From a marine gamma proteobacterium HTCC2080 (lineage in GTDB: Bacteria; Pseudomonadota; Gammaproteobacteria; Pseudomonadales; Halieaceae): a stretch of 64,000 bases of DNA. Below the pieces are notes generated by a model that searched no databases, was not told the DNA's origin, and worked only from the letters and a program-made list of their open reading frames with translations. Where the stretch lies: positions 186,001-250,000 of the forward strand of contig AAVV01000005.1 in NCBI GenBank assembly GCA_000169115.1, read 5' to 3'. Positions within the stretch are counted from its first letter, which is position 1. Each line of letters starts with the position of its first letter. Positions 5,575 to 21,115 of this stretch are shown here, piece after piece. A program made the position numbers and the translations under genes.

Positions 5575-5592
5575 TGTCAGTTTAAAGAGACA
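5575..5592. promoter_or_regulatory. Candidate CrtJ/PpsR operator upstream of bchC
   Basis: The sequence matches TGT-N12-ACA exactly and lies 82-99 bases before the bchC start, in the only sizeable gap of the crtEF-bchCXYZ run. A near match (TGT-N12-ACG) lies 26 bases away at 5601-5618, over the crtF stop. The bchC promoter is a classical CrtJ/PpsR target in Rhodobacter. A single exact site could occur by chance (about one per 4 kb), so position carries most of the weight. Confidence 0.55.
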
Positions 5593-5613
5593 TTTGAAAC
5601 TGTCAACAAAAGA

Positions 5614-6765
5614 TTACGCATTGATTTTATCACCGATGAGCACCCTCACAAGGCTAGGCATGGGGCTCTTGGCTTCACGAACGTTGTTAAATCCCGCTAT
5701 TTTCATCATTGAGGTGAGTTCTGCTGAGGTTCGCGGGCGACCGCTCCCCATTGCCCAGAGATAAAATCCGAAATAGGTGTGTCCAATCGACTCTGATCCG
5801 GGGGTTTCTGCCATGGGCTCGGCTACCATCAGCTGGCCGTTTAAAGATAGGGCCTGAAAGGCTTTATTGATGAGATGCTGGGCAGGTTTATCGTCGTGAT
5901 CGTGCAATACACGCACTAAACTCATGATGTCAGCTTGCTCGGGAAGCGGATCCTCGAACATGTCGCCACCCTGGTATTGCAGGGCATGAGACGTGTCGTT
6001 GCTGTTATGTGCCGCGGCAGCTTGCTCGGTCACCGCCGGTAAATCGTAAACGGTGGCTCGAAGGTTGGGGAATCGGGCTACCGCGCGGCGTGCAAAGGCA
6101 CCTGTACCCCCGGCAATATCTACGAGCCGTGCTTTGTCATTGAAATCGACAGTGTCCAGCACGTAATCGGCAATCATCCCCTGAGAAGTTGCCATCAGTT
6201 CGCTGTAGGTCTCGGGACTAATGTCACCTTTCTTCACGTCCCCGTAGGCCCAGTAGTTCGCCAGCGCGGTCTTTTCACGCTGACGGAGGAGTGCAGTTGG
6301 GTCCGAGAGGTCGGCGTAGAGGTGTTGATGATGGCGAACCATTGCGGCTATGCCAGGATTGGCAAGCATGGCAGCACCCAGCTCCCCTAAGCCCCAAATA
6401 TTCCCCTCGTAGCACTCTAATAGCCCTAAACCTTTAGCAGCCTTCAGTAGTGTTAGCAGGGCGGGTTCAGGGATGCCGGTAGCGGATATCAGTCTGTCCG
6501 TTTGTGCAGGCCCGTCTGCAAGCAGTTTGGGAATATCAAGTTCTACGAAAGCGGCGAGGGTTTGGGAGTACACAAAGCCCGCGGTGATGTGGTGAAGTTG
6601 GGTGGCTCGCCGATTTGCGATAAGCCGGACAAGGGGGGTTCGTGCGGCCAATTTTTGAAAGCGTGGATTGGCGATTAACTTGTTGCGGTATTGATGCCAG
6701 CGTAATCGCCAGGATGTCGAATAACCTGGGGTGTCATTGCTCACTAACTGTCCCTGTACAGACAT
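5614..6765 (-). CDS. crtF: Hydroxyneurosporene O-methyltransferase
   Basis: A 383-residue SAM-dependent methyltransferase of the plant/bacterial O-methyltransferase fold. It methylates the tertiary 1-hydroxyl of acyclic carotenoids (hydroxyneurosporene/rhodopin series). The dimerisation/winged-helix N-terminal half is followed by SAM motif I, LVDIAGGTGAFARRA (about residues 214-228), then YDLPAV. A later segment, VRVLHDHDDKPAQHLINKA, matches the His-containing active-site region, and GRPRTSAEL is a family C-terminal motif. crtE ends 3 bases upstream, so the two form the crtEF unit. Together with crtC and crtD this predicts methoxylated carotenoids of the spirilloxanthin series. Confidence 0.93.
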   Translation of the reverse strand: MSVQGQLVSNDTPGYSTSWRLRWHQYRNKLIANPRFQKLAARTPLVRLIANRRATQLHHITAGFVYSQTLAAFVELDIPKLLADGPAQTDRLISATGIPEPALLTLLKAAKGLGLLECYEGNIWGLGELGAAMLANPGIAAMVRHHQHLYADLSDPTALLRQREKTALANYWAYGDVKKGDISPETYSELMATSQGMIADYVLDTVDFNDKARLVDIAGGTGAFARRAVARFPNLRATVYDLPAVTEQAAAAHNSNDTSHALQYQGGDMFEDPLPEQADIMSLVRVLHDHDDKPAQHLINKAFQALSLNGQLMVAEPMAETPGSESIGHTYFGFYLWAMGSGRPRTSAELTSMMKIAGFNNVREAKSPMPSLVRVLIGDKINA

Positions 6766-7678: not shown

Positions 7679-7721
7679 TGTAAAGTAAACAAGACATATA
7701 AGATGTTCAAGATATATTACA
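7679..7721. promoter_or_regulatory. Tandem TGT-N12-ACA operators in the crtE/crtC divergent promoter
   Basis: Two exact TGT-N12-ACA elements occur at 7679-7696 and 7704-7721, 25 bp apart start to start, in AT-rich sequence between the crtE and crtC start codons. This is the consensus and paired arrangement of CrtJ/PpsR sites. A predicted repressor bound here would control both directions under oxygen or light. No ppsR gene lies in this window. Confidence 0.82.
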
Positions 7722-9987: not shown

Positions 9988-11509
9988 GAGGCACGACTTC
10001 GTCGAGTACTTTGGCGGAGGAGATGACACCCGGAATACCTGCTCCGGGGTGGGTTCCGGCGCCAACTAGGTAGAGGCCATCAAAGTCTTCGCTTTGGTTG
10101 TGTGGTCTAAACCATGCGCTTTGACTAATCCGGGGTTCGAAGCTAAATCCAGCACCCTTAAAGGAGTTCAGGCGATCCTGAAAGTCTAACGGTGTCAGCA
10201 GTCTGGAGGTCATTATGCGATTTGAAATGTCTGGCAGCACGGTCTCCGCTAACCGTGTTTCGATTGCTTGTCGAAATGTTTCGGCATGTTCGAGCCAGTC
10301 AACGCCAGCATCGAGGTGGGGTACGGGGACAAGGGCATAAAATGTATCGCAACCCTCGGGCGCCATGGAGCTGTCGGTTGCGGTTGGCCGGTGTAAGTAG
10401 AGGCTGAAGTCGTCACTCAAAACTTTGTGTTTGAAGATATCTTTGAGCAGGCCTTCGTAGCGAGGCCCCAGTAATACCGAATGGTGAGGGACATCCTCAT
10501 ATCGACCCTGTGTACCAAAATACCAGACAAACAGGCCATTCGAGTAAGCGGCCTTATCGAGTCTTTTGTTGGTCCAGCGCTTGCGCTTGCTCTCGGGTAG
10601 AAGATGACGGTAAGTCCAGGCGGAGTCTGCATTTGACACTACAATATCTGCGTTTAATGTTTCGCCGGTCTTTAGCGTGACGCCCGTTGCCCGCCTGCCT
10701 TCTGTATTAATTTGGGCGACCTCAGTATTGTAGAAAATGTGGCTGCCTTGTCCCTCAATCAGCGATACAAAACCATCAACTAAGCGTCCTGTACCTCCCA
10801 TGGCTGACCACACGCCAAAGCTTTGTTCGAGGTGAGAAATGAGTGAATAAATGCCAGTTACAGAAAAGGGATTGCCGCCTATGAGCAGCGGGTGAAAGCT
10901 CATGACCTGTCGTAAATACGGATCCTTGATGTAGCTAGAGACCAGGCTATAAACGCTTCGGTCACTACGTAAACGGATGAGTTGGGGTAGGAATCGAATG
11001 AGCTGCCACAGGCTGTCGAAAGATTTAAATCCGAGTCGCTCAAAGCCTACGCGATAACGTTGCTCGCTGGCATCTAAATACTTTAGGTACCCCTCGGCAT
11101 CGGCTTCATTGAAGGTCTTAATTTGTTCAATGTTGCTCTCACGGTCACCTGAATAGTCGAAGCTTCGGCCATCGTCGAAGCGAATCCTGAAGAACGGATC
11201 CATCGGCCGGAGGTCGACGTCGTCACTAAGCTTGCGGCCGCAAAGCTCCCACAATTCCTCGAGCAAGAAGGGTGCTGTAATAATTGTCGGGCCTGCGTCG
11301 AAGGTAAAACCATCTTGATGATAAACGTAAGCTCGGCCTCCGGCGGCATCGAGCTTTTCAAGAATGGTCACGCGGTAACCTCTCGCGCCCAGCCGCACTG
11401 CAGCGGCAAGTCCACCAAAACCACTACCGATAACGATCGCGTGGGGCCGCTCGTCAAGAGGGCCATAATTTTGGGTACCAAGCTTTTCCAGATCAAGTTG
11501 CGTGTTCAT
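9962..11509 (-). CDS. crtI: Phytoene desaturase
   Basis: A 515-residue CrtI-type FAD desaturase converting phytoene through successive dehydrogenations to neurosporene/lycopene. The dinucleotide-binding motif is VIGSGFGGLAAAVRLG (about residues 26-41), followed by the GGRAYVYHQDGFTFDAGPT segment. The C-terminal FAD signature is LYLVGAGTHPGAGIPGV. The open frame runs to 11689 across the bchO end. The ATG at 11509 is chosen because the upstream part is non-family and overlaps bchO. There is no strong ribosome-binding site. crtB follows with an overlap. Confidence 0.95.
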   Translation of the reverse strand: MNTQLDLEKLGTQNYGPLDERPHAIVIGSGFGGLAAAVRLGARGYRVTILEKLDAAGGRAYVYHQDGFTFDAGPTIITAPFLLEELWELCGRKLSDDVDLRPMDPFFRIRFDDGRSFDYSGDRESNIEQIKTFNEADAEGYLKYLDASEQRYRVGFERLGFKSFDSLWQLIRFLPQLIRLRSDRSVYSLVSSYIKDPYLRQVMSFHPLLIGGNPFSVTGIYSLISHLEQSFGVWSAMGGTGRLVDGFVSLIEGQGSHIFYNTEVAQINTEGRRATGVTLKTGETLNADIVVSNADSAWTYRHLLPESKRKRWTNKRLDKAAYSNGLFVWYFGTQGRYEDVPHHSVLLGPRYEGLLKDIFKHKVLSDDFSLYLHRPTATDSSMAPEGCDTFYALVPVPHLDAGVDWLEHAETFRQAIETRLAETVLPDISNRIMTSRLLTPLDFQDRLNSFKGAGFSFEPRISQSAWFRPHNQSEDFDGLYLVGAGTHPGAGIPGVISSAKVLDEVVPHATTIRTR

Positions 11510-11576
11510 TATTTTTGACGTTCTCTGTGTCAAGCTAGGCTGACAGTCTATCAGTCCAAAACCCCAGTGAATAGCG

Positions 11577-12440
11577 TCATATTTTGGCCGGTAAAGCTGC
11601 TCGAATAATGTCTGCAAAAGGCGTGGGGTCTTCTTCGTGTCCGAGGTGGCCAAGATCAGGCACCCTGTACAGTTTCGAACAGGTGACAAACTCGGATAGG
11701 CGCTCAGATTGCCAGGGAGACACGGTTCGATCGTTGGAGCAAACGACTAGATGCAACGGGGTGCGGAGGCTAGGTAAAACCTGTCGTTGATCAGCGAGAT
11801 CCCAACCTGCCATCATCTTCAGCGTGCCCGTCACATGATCAGGACGGGAAATTAGTTCCCGATAACATTGCAGCATTTGCGCGCTGGGACTAGAGCCGGT
11901 TTCAACCAGCATGTTCCTTATAGGTCGGTTAAACATGCCGTGCGCCGCGGTAATGTAAGCCAAAAGCCGAGATTTAGATAACCACTGCGCTAAGCGGTTG
12001 AATACAGGTGCCGCCGCTGAGCCAAAGGGGAGGAAAGCGCCGTTTAAGGAGACGATGGCTGCAGGCGAAAACTGTTGGTGCAGCGCTAAATGAGTTGCAA
12101 TAACGGCGCCCGCAGAGTGGCCCACTAGAAGTTTTGGATCAATCTCAAGGGCGGAAAGTAGACTCTGCAAACCGCGGGCGTAACCCTCTATGCACACATC
12201 CTCTGGCGGCAGCGGGCTGCTAAATCCCTGTCCAGGTAGATCGGGCATGACTAGGGTAAATTGATTGGCCAGCTTGTCCGCAAGCGCGGCCCAGCTGTGT
12301 GTCGACGCACCCGTGCCATGAATCATGAGTAGTGCAGGACCTGTCCCGCGAATTTGAACATGCCAGTCGATATCATCAACCTTTATAAATCGGCTGTACT
12401 CGCTGTTTGGCCAAAACTTGGGTAGATCTCGGAGGTTCAA
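11577..12440 (-). CDS. bchO: BchO, magnesium-chelatase-associated alpha/beta hydrolase
   Basis: A 287-residue alpha/beta hydrolase. The oxyanion segment is MIHGTGASTHSW, the nucleophile elbow is VGHSAG (Ser about 109), the acid lies in VVCSNDRTVSP, and the histidine lies in DLGHLGHEEDP. The triad therefore looks intact. BchO is conserved next to bchD/bchI in purple bacteria and is thought to assist Mg chelation; its substrate is not established. It overlaps bchD by four bases, giving a bchI-bchD-bchO unit with coupled translation. Confidence 0.93.
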   Translation of the reverse strand: MNLRDLPKFWPNSEYSRFIKVDDIDWHVQIRGTGPALLMIHGTGASTHSWAALADKLANQFTLVMPDLPGQGFSSPLPPEDVCIEGYARGLQSLLSALEIDPKLLVGHSAGAVIATHLALHQQFSPAAIVSLNGAFLPFGSAAAPVFNRLAQWLSKSRLLAYITAAHGMFNRPIRNMLVETGSSPSAQMLQCYRELISRPDHVTGTLKMMAGWDLADQRQVLPSLRTPLHLVVCSNDRTVSPWQSERLSEFVTCSKLYRVPDLGHLGHEEDPTPFADIIRAALPAKI

Positions 12441-14212
12441 CTTATGGCCTCAGCCGATTGCACAATATTTCGAAGTCCTTTGGCATCAGCCTGCGGCATC
12501 GCTAGATATTGGCCTCCTAGGGCGTCTGCTAATTCACGTGCCTTTTGCTGGGCGCGGGGCGATGCATCGATGACTAGCGCTCGGCTTTTTAGTGCTTTAA
12601 ATTGCTTCGCAGCGGTCATGGCTTCTTCTTTTGCACGCTGCCTACCGGGTGTGCCGTCTCTGGCGATGTTGGCGACGCCATCGGTCAGAAAAACCGCCGT
12701 AGGTGTCGCGCCATCACGTAAAATTTGTTCTGAAAGCAAGGTTGTGAGTTCTACCGCATGGGCTAACGGCGTGCCGCCGCCGCCAGGGAGCGCTGCCAAG
12801 GCTTTTTTAGCCCGTACAAGCGACCGCGTCGGGGGTAACAGAAGTTCAGCTTTGTTTCCTCGAAACGCAATCAGAGCAACGCTGTCACGACGACTGTAGC
12901 AATCGGCCAACAGGAGCTCTACGGCCCCCTTGGCTTCAGCCATCCGGTGCATTGCGGCAGAGCCCGATGCGTCCACTACAAAGAGTGTCGTACTTTCGCG
13001 CTGGTGGCGGAACCGCGTGGTTCTAAAGTCTGAGGGTTTAATGTGCAGCTGCCCTTGTCGAGCAGAGGTGGCTTGCTGACGCCGCAGGGTTTGCCAAGGT
13101 GCGGCGGCTCTGAGAGTCGCCATTAAATTAAGCCGACCCCCTCTGCGTGGGTCACCTGGCTCTGTACCTACAGGACGTCCACGTTGCTTATGACGCTGCT
13201 GGGTTCCCGATTTCCCACCACCTGAACTCTTACTTCGCGGTTGGTGCCCTTGCCGTAGCGAGGCGAGTAAGCCCGGCGGTATATAGGCTATTGCTGCTTC
13301 AATCAGGGCTTCTAGAGGGGGTGCGTCTGTGGGTTGGTCCTTGTTTTCTTTTGGCTCTTGCTCGTTGGGTTCGGTTTGGGCTTCTTGGGGTTCGGGTTCG
13401 CTAGGTTCCTCGTCTGCCTCCTCGGGTGGCTGTTGGGGCAGTCGCGTTGCTCGATGCGCAAGAGCCATAACTACGGCGCGCTCCAAATCAACTTCGATGG
13501 CTTCAGTGCGGCCTTCAAGCGCCGCTAGTATTTTGATCAATCGAGAGGTCAGTACCAAAGCTCTAGGTGAATCAATGCCTAGGGCCAGCGTGGTTGCAGC
13601 CAAGGCTTCTATAAGCGAGTCTGGAACTGCTACTGACATCCAACGCATTTGGGCATTAATCAGGTTTGCGCGATCTACGTCACTCGATAGGGCGTCGTGC
13701 ACGCTCAGGCTTCCTAGGTCAACTCGTAACCCCAAGCGTTCTGTTAATGCGTTTTGAGGATGCTCTCCCTCAAGACCCTCGTCTAGGGCAATAACGCCAA
13801 AAGCCGCGGGAACTGATTGGTTTAAACCTTCACGAGCGAGCTTCAGAGTTCCTGTATCCAAGGCGCTACACAAGTGCGCAACGGTTTGGCGCTGCGCGCG
13901 TTCGGCCATACTTAGTATTACAACGCCCCCGTCGCTCTGGGCCAGCAGTCCGCTCTCCCAATGTAGCCTGCCGGTAGCCAGTGTTTGCGCTAACTCAATG
14001 CCGCCTAGTAGGCGTGACTCTTGAACATGTAGGGGAATTCGTTTGGCGGTTGCATTGAGTTGCCACTCGGCAGCTAGTTCGAGAAATAACGTTCTTACTG
14101 GGCCTGGTGGACTGCGGACCCATAGGCCGCCTAGTGCATGCGGTGCGACTGAAAATGCAGCTAACGCCGCTTCGGCAAGTGCCCAATGGCTAGACGCCGA
14201 GGAAGGCTTCAT
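12437..14212 (-). CDS. bchD: Magnesium chelatase subunit D
   Basis: A 591-residue platform subunit of Mg-chelatase, acting with BchI and BchH to insert Mg into protoporphyrin IX. The N-terminal third is a degenerate AAA+ domain. The middle is a highly acidic, Pro/Glu-rich linker (EEADEEPSEPEPQEAQ region) and a basic patch with RSKSSGGGKSGTQQRHK. The C-terminal von Willebrand A domain has the MIDAS motif VVDASGSAA and the LPGGGGTPLAHAV segment. It has four-base overlaps with bchI upstream and bchO downstream. Confidence 0.96.
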   Translation of the reverse strand: MKPSSASSHWALAEAALAAFSVAPHALGGLWVRSPPGPVRTLFLELAAEWQLNATAKRIPLHVQESRLLGGIELAQTLATGRLHWESGLLAQSDGGVVILSMAERAQRQTVAHLCSALDTGTLKLAREGLNQSVPAAFGVIALDEGLEGEHPQNALTERLGLRVDLGSLSVHDALSSDVDRANLINAQMRWMSVAVPDSLIEALAATTLALGIDSPRALVLTSRLIKILAALEGRTEAIEVDLERAVVMALAHRATRLPQQPPEEADEEPSEPEPQEAQTEPNEQEPKENKDQPTDAPPLEALIEAAIAYIPPGLLASLRQGHQPRSKSSGGGKSGTQQRHKQRGRPVGTEPGDPRRGGRLNLMATLRAAAPWQTLRRQQATSARQGQLHIKPSDFRTTRFRHQRESTTLFVVDASGSAAMHRMAEAKGAVELLLADCYSRRDSVALIAFRGNKAELLLPPTRSLVRAKKALAALPGGGGTPLAHAVELTTLLSEQILRDGATPTAVFLTDGVANIARDGTPGRQRAKEEAMTAAKQFKALKSRALVIDASPRAQQKARELADALGGQYLAMPQADAKGLRNIVQSAEAIS

Positions 14213-15234
14213 GAGACGACCATGGTCTCCAGCACGCGCGCAATGCGGCTATCACTTCCCGATTCGTCTAGAGGATCACGGCGCAAGCGGTGCCGCAGCA
14301 CCATAGGTGCGACTGTGCGAATATCCTCGCAGGTCAGCAGGTCTTTTTTATTTAAAGCGGCAAGGGCACGCCCGGCACGCAGTAATGTTAGCTCGCCGCG
14401 CAGTCCATCAGTGCCTAGCTGGAGACACAGTGAGGCGGCAAATTCCAGCACTTCGTCCGGCGTATTCACGAGACCGACCTGCAGTCTTGCTTTTTCAATG
14501 CGACTTCGCTGCGCAGACTCTTTGCGTCGCCATTGCTTAATGAAACCTTCAGGGTCTTGTTCGTAGCGATCGCGTTGTCGAATAATCTCGACTCTCGATT
14601 TCACATCCTGAGGCGTCGCCACATCCACTGACAGTCCGAATCGATCGAGCAGTTGCGGCCTAAGCTCGCCTTCCTCGGGGTTGCCACTGCCCACCAGTAC
14701 AAAGCGAGCAGGATGCCTAATACTGAGGCCCTCACGTTCAACGACGTTTTCACCTGAAGCCGCGACATCAAGCAGTGCGTCGACAATATGATCTTCTAGT
14801 AAATTGACTTCATCAATATATAAAAACCCACGATGAGCTCTTGCCAAGAGTCCGGGTTCAAACGCTTTTTCACCGGCGTGTAAAGCTCGCTCAATATCTA
14901 AGGCGCCGATAACACGATCTTCCGTTGCTCCCAGGGGGAGGTCGACTACCGGTATGCTCACGGTCGTTGTCTTGACGACTTGATTCTTGTTTTGTTGGCA
15001 GTTGTCACACTGACCTGCTGGAGTGCGTCCAGGGTCGCAGTTATATGCGCAGTTAGCGATGACTGGAATCTTCGGCAGTAAAGCAGCTAGAGCTCTTATT
15101 GCGGTGGATTTTCCGGTGCCTCGATCGCCCATGATGAGCACGCCACCGACCCCTTGATCGACGGCTGCGATCAGCAGTGCCAGTTTCATGTCTTGCTGGG
15201 CCACAATAGCCGTAAAGGGGTAGGGTGCTGCCAT
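14209..15234 (-). CDS. bchI: Magnesium chelatase ATPase subunit I
   Basis: A 341-residue AAA+ motor. Walker A is GDRGTGKSTAIR, Walker B is RGFLYIDEVNLL, and sensor/arginine-finger segments are VGSGNPEEGELRPQLLDRFGL. A Cys-bearing insertion, NCAYNCDPGRTPAGQCDNC, precedes the conserved VVDLPLGATEDRVIGALD. It forms rings that drive Mg insertion by BchH with BchD. It is first of bchI-bchD-bchO and divergent from the hydrolase-like gene at 15338, with paired TGT-N12-ACA operators in the shared promoter. Confidence 0.97.
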   Translation of the reverse strand: MAAPYPFTAIVAQQDMKLALLIAAVDQGVGGVLIMGDRGTGKSTAIRALAALLPKIPVIANCAYNCDPGRTPAGQCDNCQQNKNQVVKTTTVSIPVVDLPLGATEDRVIGALDIERALHAGEKAFEPGLLARAHRGFLYIDEVNLLEDHIVDALLDVAASGENVVEREGLSIRHPARFVLVGSGNPEEGELRPQLLDRFGLSVDVATPQDVKSRVEIIRQRDRYEQDPEGFIKQWRRKESAQRSRIEKARLQVGLVNTPDEVLEFAASLCLQLGTDGLRGELTLLRAGRALAALNKKDLLTCEDIRTVAPMVLRHRLRRDPLDESGSDSRIARVLETMVVS

Positions 15235-15268: not shown

Positions 15269-15311
15269 TGTAAACCACAATTAACATAAAAAGTGTAACA
15301 ATAGGCGCACA
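15269..15311. promoter_or_regulatory. Tandem TGT-N12-ACA operators in the bchI/hydrolase divergent promoter
   Basis: Exact TGT-N12-ACA elements lie at 15269-15286 and 15294-15311. Their start-to-start distance is 25 bp, the same as in the crtE/crtC promoter. They sit between bchI (start 15234) and the alpha/beta-hydrolase-like gene (start 15338), so a CrtJ/PpsR-type repressor would be expected to control both. Confidence 0.82.
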
Positions 15312-15337: not shown

Positions 15338-16216
15338 ATGAGTTTAGAAAAGGCGATGGCTGCGGATATCTGCAATTTTTCGGTGGCGGGAGGGGTCCAG
15401 TTGAGCTGCTACCGTTCTGATCCAGGGGATGAAGCCATAGGTAACCGTCCATTGATTTTGCTGCACAGCATCAATGCGGCCCCCAGTGCCATGGAAATGA
15501 GGCCGTTATTTGAACGCTTTGCTGATTCGCGTGTGGTTTATGCGCCAGATTTGCCGGGTTTTGGTCGGTCGCAGCGTGGGGATCTACCGTACTCTCCGAG
15601 TTTTTATGCTCAGGTAATCGCCGATTTTTTAATGCAAATCGACGGGCCCGCCCCCGACGTGATTGCGCTGTCTTTAACCAGCGAATTCACGGCTCGTGCC
15701 CTGCGTGACAATGGCGCAGTGATTCATTCACTGACCTTGATTTCCCCAACCGGGTTGGGGCGCAATCAGCCGCCCTCTGCGGAGGTGGGTGCCCGTATCA
15801 ATCGTGTTCTCAATATTGGTTGGTTGAGCAGGGGGTTATGGCGTGCCTTAGTCTCTCGGCGCAGTATTCAGTATTTCCTTAACAAAGCTTTTTATGGTCC
15901 TGTACCCGAGGCCCTTGTTGATTATGCAGTTGCGACAACCCGTGAGCCTGAGGCGGCCCGGGCGCCCTTTGCCTTTTTGACCATGCAGCTTTTCACCACC
16001 GACGCACTGACCCTGTTGTACGAATCGCTGCAGGTGCCAACGTTGCTATTGTATGACCAAGATCCGAATATTAGTTTTGAGTGTGTGCCTGATTTACTCG
16101 ATAACAATACCCTGATCAGCGCTGAAAAAATTGTTCCCACCTGCGGCCTACCGCAATGGGAGCGCCCCGAGGAAACTTTCAACGCACTAATCCGATTTTG
16201 GGGTGAATCGCGCTAA
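15338..16216 (+). CDS. Alpha/beta-hydrolase-fold protein with a degenerate catalytic triad
   Basis: 292 residues with the overall alpha/beta-hydrolase layout: PLILLHSINAAPS (oxyanion strand), VVYAPDLPGFGRSQ and a nucleophile-elbow equivalent at IALSLTSEF (Ser about 112, with the flanking glycines lost). The usual GHxPxxE histidine motif near the C-terminus reads TCGLPQWERPEE (Cys about 269), so the catalytic His is missing. It is distinct from BchO, which is separately present. It is divergent from bchI under the same paired operators and overlaps the crtD 3' end by 30 bases. A non-enzymatic or altered role in pigment assembly is inferred. The start codon has no clear ribosome-binding site. 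Confidence 0.8.
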   Translation: MSLEKAMAADICNFSVAGGVQLSCYRSDPGDEAIGNRPLILLHSINAAPSAMEMRPLFERFADSRVVYAPDLPGFGRSQRGDLPYSPSFYAQVIADFLMQIDGPAPDVIALSLTSEFTARALRDNGAVIHSLTLISPTGLGRNQPPSAEVGARINRVLNIGWLSRGLWRALVSRRSIQYFLNKAFYGPVPEALVDYAVATTREPEAARAPFAFLTMQLFTTDALTLLYESLQVPTLLLYDQDPNISFECVPDLLDNNTLISAEKIVPTCGLPQWERPEETFNALIRFWGESR

Positions 16217-17722
16217 CACCCTAGCAAGCCAAGGTGCCGCCTGATCTTTCTTGAGCAGGGCTTGTGCCGCCAATCGGCCAGATAGTGTTGCCATGGGAAC
16301 CCCCGGGCCGGGATGAACTGAGCCTCCCGCAAGGTAAAGTCCAGAAATTTTGGTTTTTGAACTGGGCCGCATAAAGCTGGAAAAGAGTCCGTGAGTGGCT
16401 TGCCCGTAGAGGGAACCCCCGCTACCCGGAAAACGGCTAGCAAAGTCCTGTGGGTTTGCCATGCGGCAGGTCGCCGAGCTAAGTGACATTTTGAGTCCAC
16501 AGTCAGATAGCACGGCCTCGGTACGCGTGATAATTTCAGACATCTGCTGTCGAGTCCATGTGCTTAGGTCGCCTGTTGCAGGTGCATTGACTAGCACGAG
16601 TAGGCGTTCATGGCCCTCGTGATGACCGGTTAATAATCGGTCCTGAGCGCAGACGTAGACGGTGGGCCGCTCAGCGACGGTTTTGTCCTCGAACAGCGCA
16701 CTAAATTCCCGGGGGTAATCTTCATCAAAAAAGACGTTGTGATAACTCAATGGAAACCCAGCAGTATCTGCTCGCAAACACCAGGTAACGGCAGATAAAC
16801 CTCTTTGCGCCACGGGGGTCCCTCGGGTTGCCAGAACAACATCGGGGCCCAGACAGCCTGTTGCCAAGGCACTTCGGTCACCATTGAAGATGACATCGTC
16901 GGCTTCCAGTGATTCGCCGTTGTCGAGGGTGACGCCACTAACGCGACCATCGTGGGTATTTATCGCAGCAACTTTAGTATTTAGCCTAAACTGCGCGCCG
17001 TGCTCCTCCGCCAAATTTTGCATCGCTCGAGCCAGAGAGGTCATGCCTCCAGGCAAAACCCAGACGCCCTGCTGTTCGGCGTGGGTGATGAGCAGTAGTG
17101 TCGCCGGTGCTCTGAATGGTGAGGAGCCTACATAGGTGGCGTAGCGCCCAAAGAGTTGGCGTAGTCGTGGGTCTTTTAAATAATCCCCAAGGGCGCGCCA
17201 CAAGGTTTGATGAGGTCTTAGTGTCAGCATTTCACCAAGCTTGTTAAGCCCTATGCGCATTGCCAAACTTATAGGATTCGGTTGGGGCGCTGCCATAAAG
17301 CTGGATTTCAGCAATTCGAAAATGTGACCGGAATCCCGGCAAAGTTGCAAATACCCCTCTGCATCCTCACTGCCGGCTAGGGCTGCGATGTCAGCTGCGG
17401 TAACCTGCGGATCCGCATGGAGATCAATGGAGGCACCACTCGTCCACCAATGGCGGGCCAGTGTGGTAATTTCCTTGAAGGGGAGTCGGCTGGCGAATTG
17501 TGCCCCTGCATTTGCAAATAGGTCGTCAAATACCCAGCGCATAGTGAAAACAGTAGGTCCGGCATCAATCCAATGTTCACCAGACCGAACCTGATGCATT
17601 TTTCCTCCCACAGTTGCAGCGCTCTCTAAAACAGTGACCGCGCGACCCGCCGCAGCGAGCTCCACCGCAGCGGCAAGTCCACCTGCGCCAGCGCCAATAA
17701 CAATGACGTGCTGTTTGCTCAT
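16187..17722 (-). CDS. crtD: Carotenoid 3,4-desaturase (methoxyneurosporene/hydroxyneurosporene dehydrogenase)
   Basis: A 511-residue CrtI/CrtD-family FAD enzyme. The FAD motif VIVIGAGAGGLAAAVELA is at about residues 6-23, followed by GGKMHQVRSGEHWIDAGPTVFTM, a CrtD-like variant of the CrtI segment. The C-terminal signature is LYLAGGSVHPGPGVPMA. It introduces the C3,4 double bond after hydration and methylation. CrtD is chosen over a second CrtI because of the N-terminal segment and because crtI is already present at 9962. It overlaps the upstream membrane-protein gene by four bases, so the two are coupled. Confidence 0.9.
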   Translation of the reverse strand: MSKQHVIVIGAGAGGLAAAVELAAAGRAVTVLESAATVGGKMHQVRSGEHWIDAGPTVFTMRWVFDDLFANAGAQFASRLPFKEITTLARHWWTSGASIDLHADPQVTAADIAALAGSEDAEGYLQLCRDSGHIFELLKSSFMAAPQPNPISLAMRIGLNKLGEMLTLRPHQTLWRALGDYLKDPRLRQLFGRYATYVGSSPFRAPATLLLITHAEQQGVWVLPGGMTSLARAMQNLAEEHGAQFRLNTKVAAINTHDGRVSGVTLDNGESLEADDVIFNGDRSALATGCLGPDVVLATRGTPVAQRGLSAVTWCLRADTAGFPLSYHNVFFDEDYPREFSALFEDKTVAERPTVYVCAQDRLLTGHHEGHERLLVLVNAPATGDLSTWTRQQMSEIITRTEAVLSDCGLKMSLSSATCRMANPQDFASRFPGSGGSLYGQATHGLFSSFMRPSSKTKISGLYLAGGSVHPGPGVPMATLSGRLAAQALLKKDQAAPWLARVLARFTPKSD

Positions 17723-18471
17723 TTGGCGACCACTTTTTGCTCTCGGGATTTACGGGTTATCGTGTATTGATGGTAAATGATTAAGGTTAGGCCGGTGATC
17801 AAAGGAATCGCCCAGAGACCCGGCGTTAGGGCTAGTTCTGGCATTAGCCGCACCGCGCCGAAAGCAAAAAATGCGGTGTAAACTGAAATTCCTGCGCCTA
17901 CCAAGCTTTTGATGTGCTCTTTTACATAGTCATGGTTATTGGGTGCAGGTTTAAAAATAAACCAATAATTTGTCGCGACAGTGGCGAAGCCCACTATGGA
18001 GAGTCCCATCATCATAGGCTGCTGCACCCAGTAGCCCTGTATCAGACACGTTGTAGACGCGATAGTCAGTGCAATCTGCAAACAGTTGTTGGCGCGTGTT
18101 CCGGTGGCACGATGGTTTCTTTTGTGCCGTAGGGCAAGCTTGCCATGCCAAGCAAGATTAACCGTGAGCGTGGCGAGATACAGCATCATCCAGCCAAAAA
18201 TGGCACGTATCATAGAGGGGTCGCTAAACACCTCATGATCAGACAAGTGTGGGTGAGTTGCTACAGGGTCAAAGAGCGTGGTGGTGGCAATGCCTATTGC
18301 GGTGATTCCAGTGATTAGTAGCGTATTAATGAAGACGCGACCAAACCGCCGATGGCTGGTGCTTCCTTTGCGACCTCCTACGGGAATCCAAAACGAAATA
18401 AGACCTACTGTCCCGGTGGCAATGTGGACAGCAACTAAGGTCATAAAGATGTCATGGGTCGACACCATCAA
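17719..18471 (-). CDS. Multi-pass membrane protein, DUF2306-like, coupled to crtD
   Basis: 250 residues with about seven hydrophobic helices (roughly 8-27, 47-66, 90-108, 130-148, 154-172, 190-210, 217-236). A conserved-looking HIATGTVGLISFW...SHRRFGRVF pattern near the start resembles DUF2306-type membrane proteins (histidine in helix 1, then HRRxGR in the loop). Function unknown. The four-base overlap with crtD and divergence from the P450 at 18489 (17 bases between starts) suggest a role in carotenoid handling or oxygenation, for example as a membrane partner. That is inference. The Pfam link is from memory of pattern only. Confidence 0.75.
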   Translation of the reverse strand: MMVSTHDIFMTLVAVHIATGTVGLISFWIPVGGRKGSTSHRRFGRVFINTLLITGITAIGIATTTLFDPVATHPHLSDHEVFSDPSMIRAIFGWMMLYLATLTVNLAWHGKLALRHKRNHRATGTRANNCLQIALTIASTTCLIQGYWVQQPMMMGLSIVGFATVATNYWFIFKPAPNNHDYVKEHIKSLVGAGISVYTAFFAFGAVRLMPELALTPGLWAIPLITGLTLIIYHQYTITRKSREQKVVAK

Positions 18472-18488
18472 AGCGCCCTCGCATACTG

Positions 18489-19889
18489 GTGAATCTGTTG
18501 TCCTGGCGTCTCACTATGTCCTATAGCAATCACTTTGTCCCGCCCCATCCCAAACCGCTGCCTGCGCTGCCCGCTCTCGCTAGGGTTCTGTGGCATGGCG
18601 ATGGCAACTTGCTCGAGCTGATGCCGGGTGAGGCTTATAGATTTGATTTTGGTAATTTGGGTTATTCCCGACGCTCGACCGTGCTGTTTAACCAGCCGGA
18701 ATTGGTGCGAGAGATTTTGCGTGATGACGGCAGCCGCTTCCCGAAAAGTGATTTGATGGTTAACGCCCTTGAGCCGCTGATCGGCCAGTCTATTTTTGTC
18801 ACTGATGGTGCGCGTTGGAAGCGTCAGCGCGGCATGATAGATCCCGCATTTTCTCAGCTGCGGGTAAGCCATGCCTTTGATGCCATGCAATCTGCTGTTC
18901 TTGACCATTTGGATGTTTTGGACGGTCATGCTGACAGTGGGGACAGTTTTTCCCTCGACATGGCCATGAGCCATTTGACGGCCGATGTCATTTGTCGAAC
19001 AATATTTTCGACACCGCTTGCGGCGGGGGTGTCTAGCGACGTTTTTGAAGACTTCACAGAATTTGAGCAGTCGGTAGCGCAGGTTGATATTTTTCGTCTC
19101 ATTTTTCAAAAAGCCTGGGCAAAGATGCCGCAGCCCCCGGGAGTATTGGCCGCTTGCCAGCGTATCCGAGGGCACCTGGGTGACTTGGTGGATCCCCATT
19201 TGGAAAATCCTGGCGCCTTCAATGATATTGCGAGTGACGTGATTGCGGCCAAAGACAGTGATACTGGGGAGGCGTTTACCCGTGAAGAGCTGATTGACCA
19301 GCTGGGGGTTTTCTTTCTGGCTGGGCATGAGACGTCGGCTAGCGCATTGACCTGGGTGTTTTACTTGCTGGCCGAGCAGCCAACCTTGGTCTTGCGACTG
19401 CGTAATGAGCTTGAGCACGTTGTGGGGTCGGGCCCCATTAACTTCAATCACGTGAAACAACTGCCCTTGGTTCGAGCCGTATTTAGGGAGACCCTCCGGC
19501 TCTATCCGCCGATTACTTTTATTCCCCGCGTCGCCCTTGAAGATTGTCAAATTGGCCCGAGGAAGCTGCGGCGTGGTGCGCTGGTCATGGTCTCGCCATG
19601 GACCATTCATCGGCACCAGCGTTATTGGAGCGATCCCGATGCTTTCATACCTGATCGCTTTCTCGTTGAGGGTGAGAGCTCGATTCAAGAAGGCGCGTAT
19701 ATTCCTTTTGGCGTTGGACCACACACGTGCATTGGTGCGGGCTTCGCTCAAGCTGAAGCAGTTTTGATTATTGCTGAGCTGGTACGGCGCTTCGATTTCA
19801 GCCGTGCCGACAGACAGTCTGTACGGCCTGCTGCACGATTGACGACCCGCCCGGCCCAGCAAATTAAGCTTCATTGTCGACGCTTGTGA
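18489..19889 (+). CDS. Cytochrome P450 inside the photosynthesis gene cluster
   Basis: Up to 466 residues. Family motifs present are the I-helix oxygen site FFLAGHETSAS, the K-helix FRETLRLYPP, the meander segment DPDAFIPDRFL, and the haem loop FGVGPHTCIGAGFA with the Cys ligand. The ETLRLYPP and DRF segments resemble CYP4/CYP110-like bacterial P450s that act on long hydrophobic chains. No signal or membrane anchor is seen. The frame starts with GTG at 18489; an ATG at 18516 is a plausible alternative, and neither has a good ribosome-binding site. Its 3' end overlaps the convergent ATP-grasp gene by 26 bases. Location predicts a carotenoid or bacteriochlorophyll-tail substrate (inference). 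Confidence 0.9.
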   Translation: MNLLSWRLTMSYSNHFVPPHPKPLPALPALARVLWHGDGNLLELMPGEAYRFDFGNLGYSRRSTVLFNQPELVREILRDDGSRFPKSDLMVNALEPLIGQSIFVTDGARWKRQRGMIDPAFSQLRVSHAFDAMQSAVLDHLDVLDGHADSGDSFSLDMAMSHLTADVICRTIFSTPLAAGVSSDVFEDFTEFEQSVAQVDIFRLIFQKAWAKMPQPPGVLAACQRIRGHLGDLVDPHLENPGAFNDIASDVIAAKDSDTGEAFTREELIDQLGVFFLAGHETSASALTWVFYLLAEQPTLVLRLRNELEHVVGSGPINFNHVKQLPLVRAVFRETLRLYPPITFIPRVALEDCQIGPRKLRRGALVMVSPWTIHRHQRYWSDPDAFIPDRFLVEGESSIQEGAYIPFGVGPHTCIGAGFAQAEAVLIIAELVRRFDFSRADRQSVRPAARLTTRPAQQIKLHCRRL

Positions 19890-21045
19890 CCGCTTCGGTC
19901 GAAGTCTCCGACCATAACGGCGCGATATCTCGCTGGCATGCTTCTCCGAGTGATATTCCTTCGAGAAGCGCCGGCTTTAAAATTGGCCATGAGAGTGGCG
20001 TCATTAATAAAAAAGGCAGGGGATCCCGCCGGGACCAGACCACGTCAGAAACTTTCCAGCATAAACCTATCCGTCGCCCAAACTCTTTGAAATCGCCAGA
20101 AAACAATGCTGCATAGGCCTCGGTCAGGGTGCTGTAGCGCCACTGCCAGATCGTGTTTATATGGGGGGTTAGCGGTGTGTTTTTGGAGGTGGAAAGGGCA
20201 GCTCCCAAGCTTTCCGCGGTGAAAAAATGGATGCCACTGGTTAGCCGAGGATTGCATTCGATGGCCTGTGGGGTACCCGAAGCATCAACAATGAAGTCAA
20301 AGGCGATAAAGCCGCTGTAATTCATGTCCTTCACAAAGGTCTCTATCCATTGGCTAACTTTGTCAGCTATGTCTCCTGTCAGCCTTTCAAAGCATATCGC
20401 GACGGTGCCAGCAAAGACCGAGCCCTGATAAACGGTGCTAGCTTGAATTTCGCCGGCTTTGATCATGGACAGACTACTGACAACCTCACCTTCAATCGTT
20501 TGTTGCACGAGCAACTTAGGGCTCTTTGACGTCAGTACATCTCCAGCGCGGTGAAATGCCACGTCAATTCCAGAGCAGCCATTGATGGGCTTTGTTATGT
20601 AATCAGATGTTTCGCATATGGTGGCCGCCAACGGTGAATCAGCTGGGGCCGAACGAGGGGCCGTCAGCGTTTTTTGGAGGGCCGAGTCTATAAATGCGGC
20701 TTTATCAGCCAATGTGCGGTAGAGCTCCACATCGGGACCAAACAGGGTTACTTGGGGAGGTAGGCGGCTGCGAATCGCCAGAACGTAATGTGCTTCTTCT
20801 GATATGGGTACAACAAGATCCACCTTCTCTTGAGTGATCAGTGCGAGAAGTGCCTGCTGGTAAGCCCCTGCATCATCGTTGGGAGCGGGAAGTTGAACAG
20901 TTTTAGCGACGTCCCTAGATACACGGCTTAGGTGCCAGGCAAAAGGTTCAGCGACAATGACGCGGTAACCCTGCATGCGCAAAGCGCGTGCGACAGCGAG
21001 GGCTTTTGGAAGTCTCCCAAGGGTGATGAGTGCGGTTGGCATCAT
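19864..21045 (-). CDS. ATP-grasp family ligase of unknown substrate
   Basis: 393 residues. It has an N-terminal Rossmann-like pre-ATP-grasp domain (ALITLGRLPKALAVARAL), then ATP-grasp elements: SDYITKPINGCSGIDV, LLVQQTIEGEVVS, and the Mg-binding strand FDFIVDASGTPQAIECNPR. It resembles the carbamoyl-phosphate-synthase/D-Ala ligase superfamily members that activate a carboxylate to acyl phosphate for attack by an amine or other nucleophile. The substrate is unknown. The start at ATG 21045 (or 21042) is preferred over 21081 because AGGA sits just upstream. A TGT-N12-ACA element lies 71 bases upstream. It lies tail-to-tail with the P450, overlapping by 26 bases, which links it to the pigment cluster. 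Confidence 0.8.
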   Translation of the reverse strand: MMPTALITLGRLPKALAVARALRMQGYRVIVAEPFAWHLSRVSRDVAKTVQLPAPNDDAGAYQQALLALITQEKVDLVVPISEEAHYVLAIRSRLPPQVTLFGPDVELYRTLADKAAFIDSALQKTLTAPRSAPADSPLAATICETSDYITKPINGCSGIDVAFHRAGDVLTSKSPKLLVQQTIEGEVVSSLSMIKAGEIQASTVYQGSVFAGTVAICFERLTGDIADKVSQWIETFVKDMNYSGFIAFDFIVDASGTPQAIECNPRLTSGIHFFTAESLGAALSTSKNTPLTPHINTIWQWRYSTLTEAYAALFSGDFKEFGRRIGLCWKVSDVVWSRRDPLPFLLMTPLSWPILKPALLEGISLGEACQRDIAPLWSETSTEAVTSVDNEA

Positions 21046-21115
21046 GGTTCCTTTGGCCACAATGCGATTTTGGCCGCGCATACCGTGTTCATTTCGCCTA
21101 CGGCAATGAATTCTC

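Follow-up and report, generated by a model that had tools for sequence, protein, structure and literature searches.

The 103-bp region between bchI and a divergent hydrolase-like gene in HTCC2080 houses two closely spaced palindromes, raising the question of whether these form an operator that serves both genes, and whether their spacing reflects a repressor geometry common to the photosynthesis gene cluster. A sequence-only reading of the window (the whole stretch of DNA that was analysed, 64,000 nucleotides) had placed exact TGT-N12-ACA elements at 15269 and 15294. Both starts were reproduced from the sequence and by pattern search, giving a start-to-start offset of 25 bp and a gap of 7 bp (Table 1).

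A tandem palindrome pair between bchI and the hydrolase gene

With two perfect TGT-N12-ACA palindromes separated by seven base pairs, located upstream of bchI in a genome that encodes PpsR, the pair is an ordinary and expected tandem PpsR operator; such operators have been described before in the clade. Our preferred reading, to which we assign a probability of roughly 85%, is that of a tandem operator for PpsR (CrtJ), a repressor responsive to redox state (oxygen) and light, with probable cooperative binding of both palindromes, repressing bchI-bchD-bchO and probably the hydrolase gene. Two PpsR multimers would bind cooperatively, spanning the 7-bp gap between the two 18-bp palindromes, and the bound repressor would occupy the 103-bp divergent promoter region, where it would repress bchI-bchD-bchO in one direction and the photosynthesis-linked hydrolase in the other. 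Binding and repression are here predicted by analogy with well-studied relatives (PMC5362033, PMC9144470). Palindrome 1 lies 34 bp from the bchI start codon, and palindrome 2 lies 26 bp from the start codon of the hydrolase gene. Counting against this reading, PpsR sites usually overlap the -35 and -10 elements, and a sigma-70 scan of both strands passed no promoter here.

Table 1. Features of the bchI/hydrolase locus and tandem operator pairs of the photosynthesis cluster (window positions unless stated otherwise)
Feature	Position	Strand	Remarks
Palindrome 1, PpsR-type, TGTAAACCACAATTAACA	15269-15286	.	exact TGT-N12-ACA match
Gap between palindromes 1 and 2, TAAAAAG	15287-15293	.	7 bp
Palindrome 2, PpsR-type, TGTAACAATAGGCGCACA	15294-15311	.	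exact TGT-N12-ACA match
Photosynthesis-linked alpha/beta-hydrolase-fold protein without catalytic His	15338-16216	+	PF12697
bchI, Mg-chelatase ATPase subunit I	14209-15234	-	TIGR02030, 498 bits (cut-off 467)
bchD, probably in bchI-led operon	12437-14212	-	NF009943, 681 bits (cut-off 571); overlaps bchI end
bchO, probably in bchI-led operon	11577-12440	-	TIGR03056, 237 bits (cut-off 173)
bchC tandem operator pair, gap 8	5575-5618	.	second site ends ACG
crtE/crtC tandem operator pair, gap 7	7679-7721	.	both sites perfect
crtI tandem operator pair, gap 7	11503-11545	.	first site ends ACG
acsF tandem pair, gap 8	contig C21, position 157058 (left of window)		directly upstream of acsF, aerobic cyclase gene

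Single TGT-N12-ACA sites occur 17 times in the window compared to 12.7 expected, which is near chance and gives isolated sites little weight. The frequency of a perfect pair with gap 7 was 1.2e-5 per region (about 1 in 80,000) in a simulation of 2 million 103-bp regions with a dinucleotide make-up matched to that of the bchI/hydrolase region. Across the whole 3,576,081-bp genome there are only two perfect pairs with a gap of 7 to 9, at crtE/crtC and at bchI/hydrolase, both inside the photosynthesis gene cluster, and the reversed-pattern control over the same genome and gaps yielded no perfect pairs. An accidental match in an AT-rich intergenic region, which the near-chance count of single sites might suggest, is highly improbable and is ruled out as the origin of the pair by the genome-wide count, the simulation and the persistence of half-sites and spacing across diverged relatives.

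It is also very unlikely that the pair is bound by another regulator with identical TGT-N12-ACA half-sites. Regulator identity is taken from gene linkage, and the consensus is a short one, but the one full-length ppsR gene of the genome (TIGR02040, 681 bits, cut-off 275) resides in the same photosynthesis cluster, on the same contig and approximately 34 kb from the pair, and the spacing classes fit those of known PpsR/CrtJ operators (PMC2654016, PMC9144470).

Comparison with relatives shows how far the pair extends. The gap-7 pair has at most one mismatch in the window genome and the seven relatives nearest to it, and in the eight closest genomes the palindrome 1 core GTGTAAAC is kept and the palindrome 2 core GTGTAACAAT is identical, these half-site cores being among the best-conserved parts of the bchI/hydrolase region. 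Further out in Luminiphilus, where the regions differ in sequence and range from 103 to 259 bp in length, the sites are weaker and gap 7 is still the best-scoring. In total, gap 7 scored best of 21 gaps in 40 of 47 Luminiphilus genomes (26 of 30 non-redundant clusters), counts that overstate the independent evidence because genomes of the same genus share ancestry, and several of the weaker pairs, taken singly, would not hold up in a comparison with shuffles. No clear pair was found in the bchI/hydrolase region outside Luminiphilus, or at this locus in other gammaproteobacteria that have the same divergent hydrolase, and operator control of the locus is therefore not universal. The expectation that the 25-bp phase would recur in relatives thus holds throughout Luminiphilus, where its retention upholds, on sequence grounds, the interpretation of the pair as a repressor operator, and finds no clear counterpart beyond the genus, where the outcome named beforehand as refuting it does apply.

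The hydrolase gene and its probable place in the regulon

The sequence-only reading had also placed the otherwise unassigned hydrolase-like gene in the photosynthesis regulon. By context, its standing as a real photosynthesis-cluster gene is well supported. Hydrolase and bchI are each present in 58 of 140 Halieaceae genomes, 57 of them common to both, and the two genes adjoin in nearly all Halieaceae having either one. Other gammaproteobacteria carry homologs in their photosynthesis clusters, in most cases divergent from bchI, and further homologs lie between bchO and bchD in a Hyphomicrobiales genome and beside crtD in a Lysobacterales genome. In genus g7 the hydrolase gene has been re-oriented and lies upstream of bchI, and a perfect gap-7 pair of its own precedes it. 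Two purple sulfur bacteria also have matches; within the stretches covered, these are not near recognisable photosynthesis genes, one weak crtE-like match being the sole photosynthesis-like neighbour. Cluster membership, drawn from the co-occurrence with bchI, the clusters of other lineages and the g7 pair, therefore stands; the hydrolase gene is probably regulated by PpsR, and we infer its control by the bchI/hydrolase pair in particular.

The pair could instead govern bchI-bchD-bchO only, with the divergent hydrolase sharing the region and not the regulation. Other gammaproteobacteria do have the hydrolase divergent from bchI without an operator pair, and in one group of Luminiphilus relatives (G071-like) a TTGACA-N16-TAAAAT arrangement can be picked out visually, and only in the bchI direction. 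However, both palindromes are symmetric, no more than 103 bp separate the two genes, the hydrolase start lies close to palindrome 2, and the re-oriented gene of genus g7 has a pair of its own upstream, making exclusive control of bchI-bchD-bchO somewhat unlikely. Repression of both flanking transcripts by PpsR is the reading that we prefer.

The hydrolase protein itself has a degenerate active site. Ser112 (the nucleophile) and Asp242 are kept in Halieaceae orthologs, and the position of the catalytic His is occupied by Gly in these orthologs and by Gly or Ala in distant homologs, in all homologs inspected (L188-L205 included), leaving the classical Ser-Asp-His triad incomplete. A structure model predicted from four sequences (mean pLDDT 69.8) agrees with the standard alpha/beta-hydrolase fold, with low model confidence around the missing His at residues 267-273. 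The protein resembles BchO (TIGR03056) in being an alpha/beta-hydrolase-fold protein encoded beside bchI and bchD, but it has no TIGR03056 match, whereas the product of 11577-12440 does. A BchO paralog was ruled out, as a separate true BchO is encoded in the window and similarity to it is only marginal. What emerges is a widespread photosynthesis-cluster protein with no assigned role.

Elsewhere in the window, positions 17719-21081 encode two proteins (250 and 468 aa) without a Pfam or NCBIfam family, plus an ATP-grasp protein. This block adjoins crtD in Luminiphilus and in a g3 genome; a Lysobacterales genome (L204) likewise has it in the neighbourhood of crtD and ppsR.

Gaps of seven and eight base pairs

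The offset of 25 bp had been noted as equal to that at crtE/crtC, and this equality was confirmed (crtE/crtC sites at 7679-7696 and 7704-7721). The broader proposal built on it, that one repressor geometry is conserved across the cluster, fails. Five tandem pairs are found in the photosynthesis cluster, and although crtE/crtC, crtI and bchI/hydrolase have a gap of 7, bchC and acsF have a gap of 8, which corresponds to an offset of 26. A single 25-bp geometry was dropped on the contrast of bchC and acsF with crtI, and it does not return in relatives, where bchC has an offset of 26 wherever the gene is in view and crtI an offset of 25. Among the Halieaceae clusters examined, the bchC gap is 8 in 18 of 18 and the crtI gap is 7 in each of the 21 with a scoring pair (Fisher p 1.6e-11 for the contrast, uncorrected for relatedness); at crtE/crtC, most have 7 and some have 8. 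As a separate observation, the crtE/crtC pair overlaps the opening codons of crtE when the longest open reading frame is taken (TTG start, 7710); family matches begin only at about residue 35 or later, so translation of crtE probably starts at a more downstream codon.

The same two gaps prevail across Proteobacteria. In a survey of 80 named alpha-, beta- and gammaproteobacterial loci, 71 have a bchC pair at no more than two mismatches, and 66 of these, or about 90%, have gap 8 (63 of 71 when region and cut-off were set slightly differently). Of the perfect pairs in 97 photosynthesis loci, 29 have gap 7 and 38 have gap 8; the remaining gaps between 0 and 40 together account for 13, and the reversed control contains a single perfect pair in total. 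In these surveys 25 bp is a standard geometry alongside 26 bp, and the choice between the two varies by promoter. Offsets of 25 and 26 are likewise the classical tandem spacings of PpsR/CrtJ (PMC2654016, PMC9144470), and the gap between sites in Rhodobacter is typically eight (PMC9144470). Near bchC, loci L099, L112, L129, L160 and L186 contain triples of consecutive PpsR-type palindromes in which gaps of 7 and 8 are mixed, and all palindromes of the L099 triple (from 5084) are perfect.

The gene-specific spacing, with 7 at bchI/hydrolase and 8 at bchC, is the only unusual feature of the pair. One explanation is that the gap is dictated by the overlap of the palindromes with promoter hexamers and not by the repressor. 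At bchC, the upstream palindrome contains a near-invariant -35 element, TTGACA (on average 5.87 of 6 positions match, n = 63); a gap of 8 then puts a TAnACT-like -10 element into the second palindrome. On the other hand, gap-7 promoters have no consistent -10 register, no sigma-70 promoter passes a scan of both strands at the bchI/hydrolase pair, and gaps of 7 and 8 are mixed within tandem triples. A general rule in which the gap equals the promoter spacer minus a constant is plausible at bchC, and it was demoted to a rival because of the missing -10 register at gap-7 promoters. We regard dictation by hexamers as a genuine contender that nevertheless falls short of even odds.

The choice of 7 or 8 could also be a conserved promoter-specific code through which a single PpsR gives different redox (or heme) responses at crtI/bchI-type and bchC/acsF-type promoters, a proposal that we put forward as speculative and rather unlikely. 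If true, such a code could explain why the bacteriochlorophyll-to-carotenoid ratio is redox-dependent, as reported for this clade. An earlier proposal for the clade is that operators of bacteriochlorophyll genes are discriminated from those of carotenoid genes (PMC3666943), and promoter-specific gaps would be a candidate basis for it, although a simple division between the two gene classes does not hold because bchI, a bacteriochlorophyll gene, shares the gap of crtI. As the spacing per promoter (8 at bchC, 7 at crtI) is fixed over large evolutionary distances, and a 1-bp change in spacing alters redox-dependent PpsR binding in Rubrivivax (PMC4452267), this long-standing proposal becomes testable by changes of plus or minus 1 bp. 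The comparison of spacings around the bchI/hydrolase pair is in this respect more useful than the pair itself.

Comparison with known PpsR and CrtJ operators

The closest known counterpart is Congregibacter litoralis KT71, a member of the same clade with the same palindrome, in which 12 of 15 putative PpsR sites are reported to occur in tandem within the photosynthesis cluster, 7 or 8 nucleotides apart (PMC2654016). The main text of that report gives the spacing without a gene-by-gene breakdown, which its Figure S5 may contain. The CrtJ pair at bchC of Rhodobacter capsulatus, which has been footprinted and is aerobically repressed, likewise consists of two close TGT-N12-ACA palindromes (PMC5362033, PMC9144470); it differs in having a gap of 8 and in overlapping the -35 and -10 elements, while the bchI/hydrolase pair has a gap of 7 and no recognisable promoter. 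Finally, Rubrivivax gelatinosus shares the feature of promoter-specific spacing, with 9 bp at pucB and 8 bp at crtI (PMC4452267). The promoters compared there are partly others, and the crtI gap of 8 contrasts with the gap of 7 in HTCC2080, but it is in this organism that the difference between 9 and 8 bp has been found to alter the redox-dependent binding of PpsR in vitro (PMC4452267).
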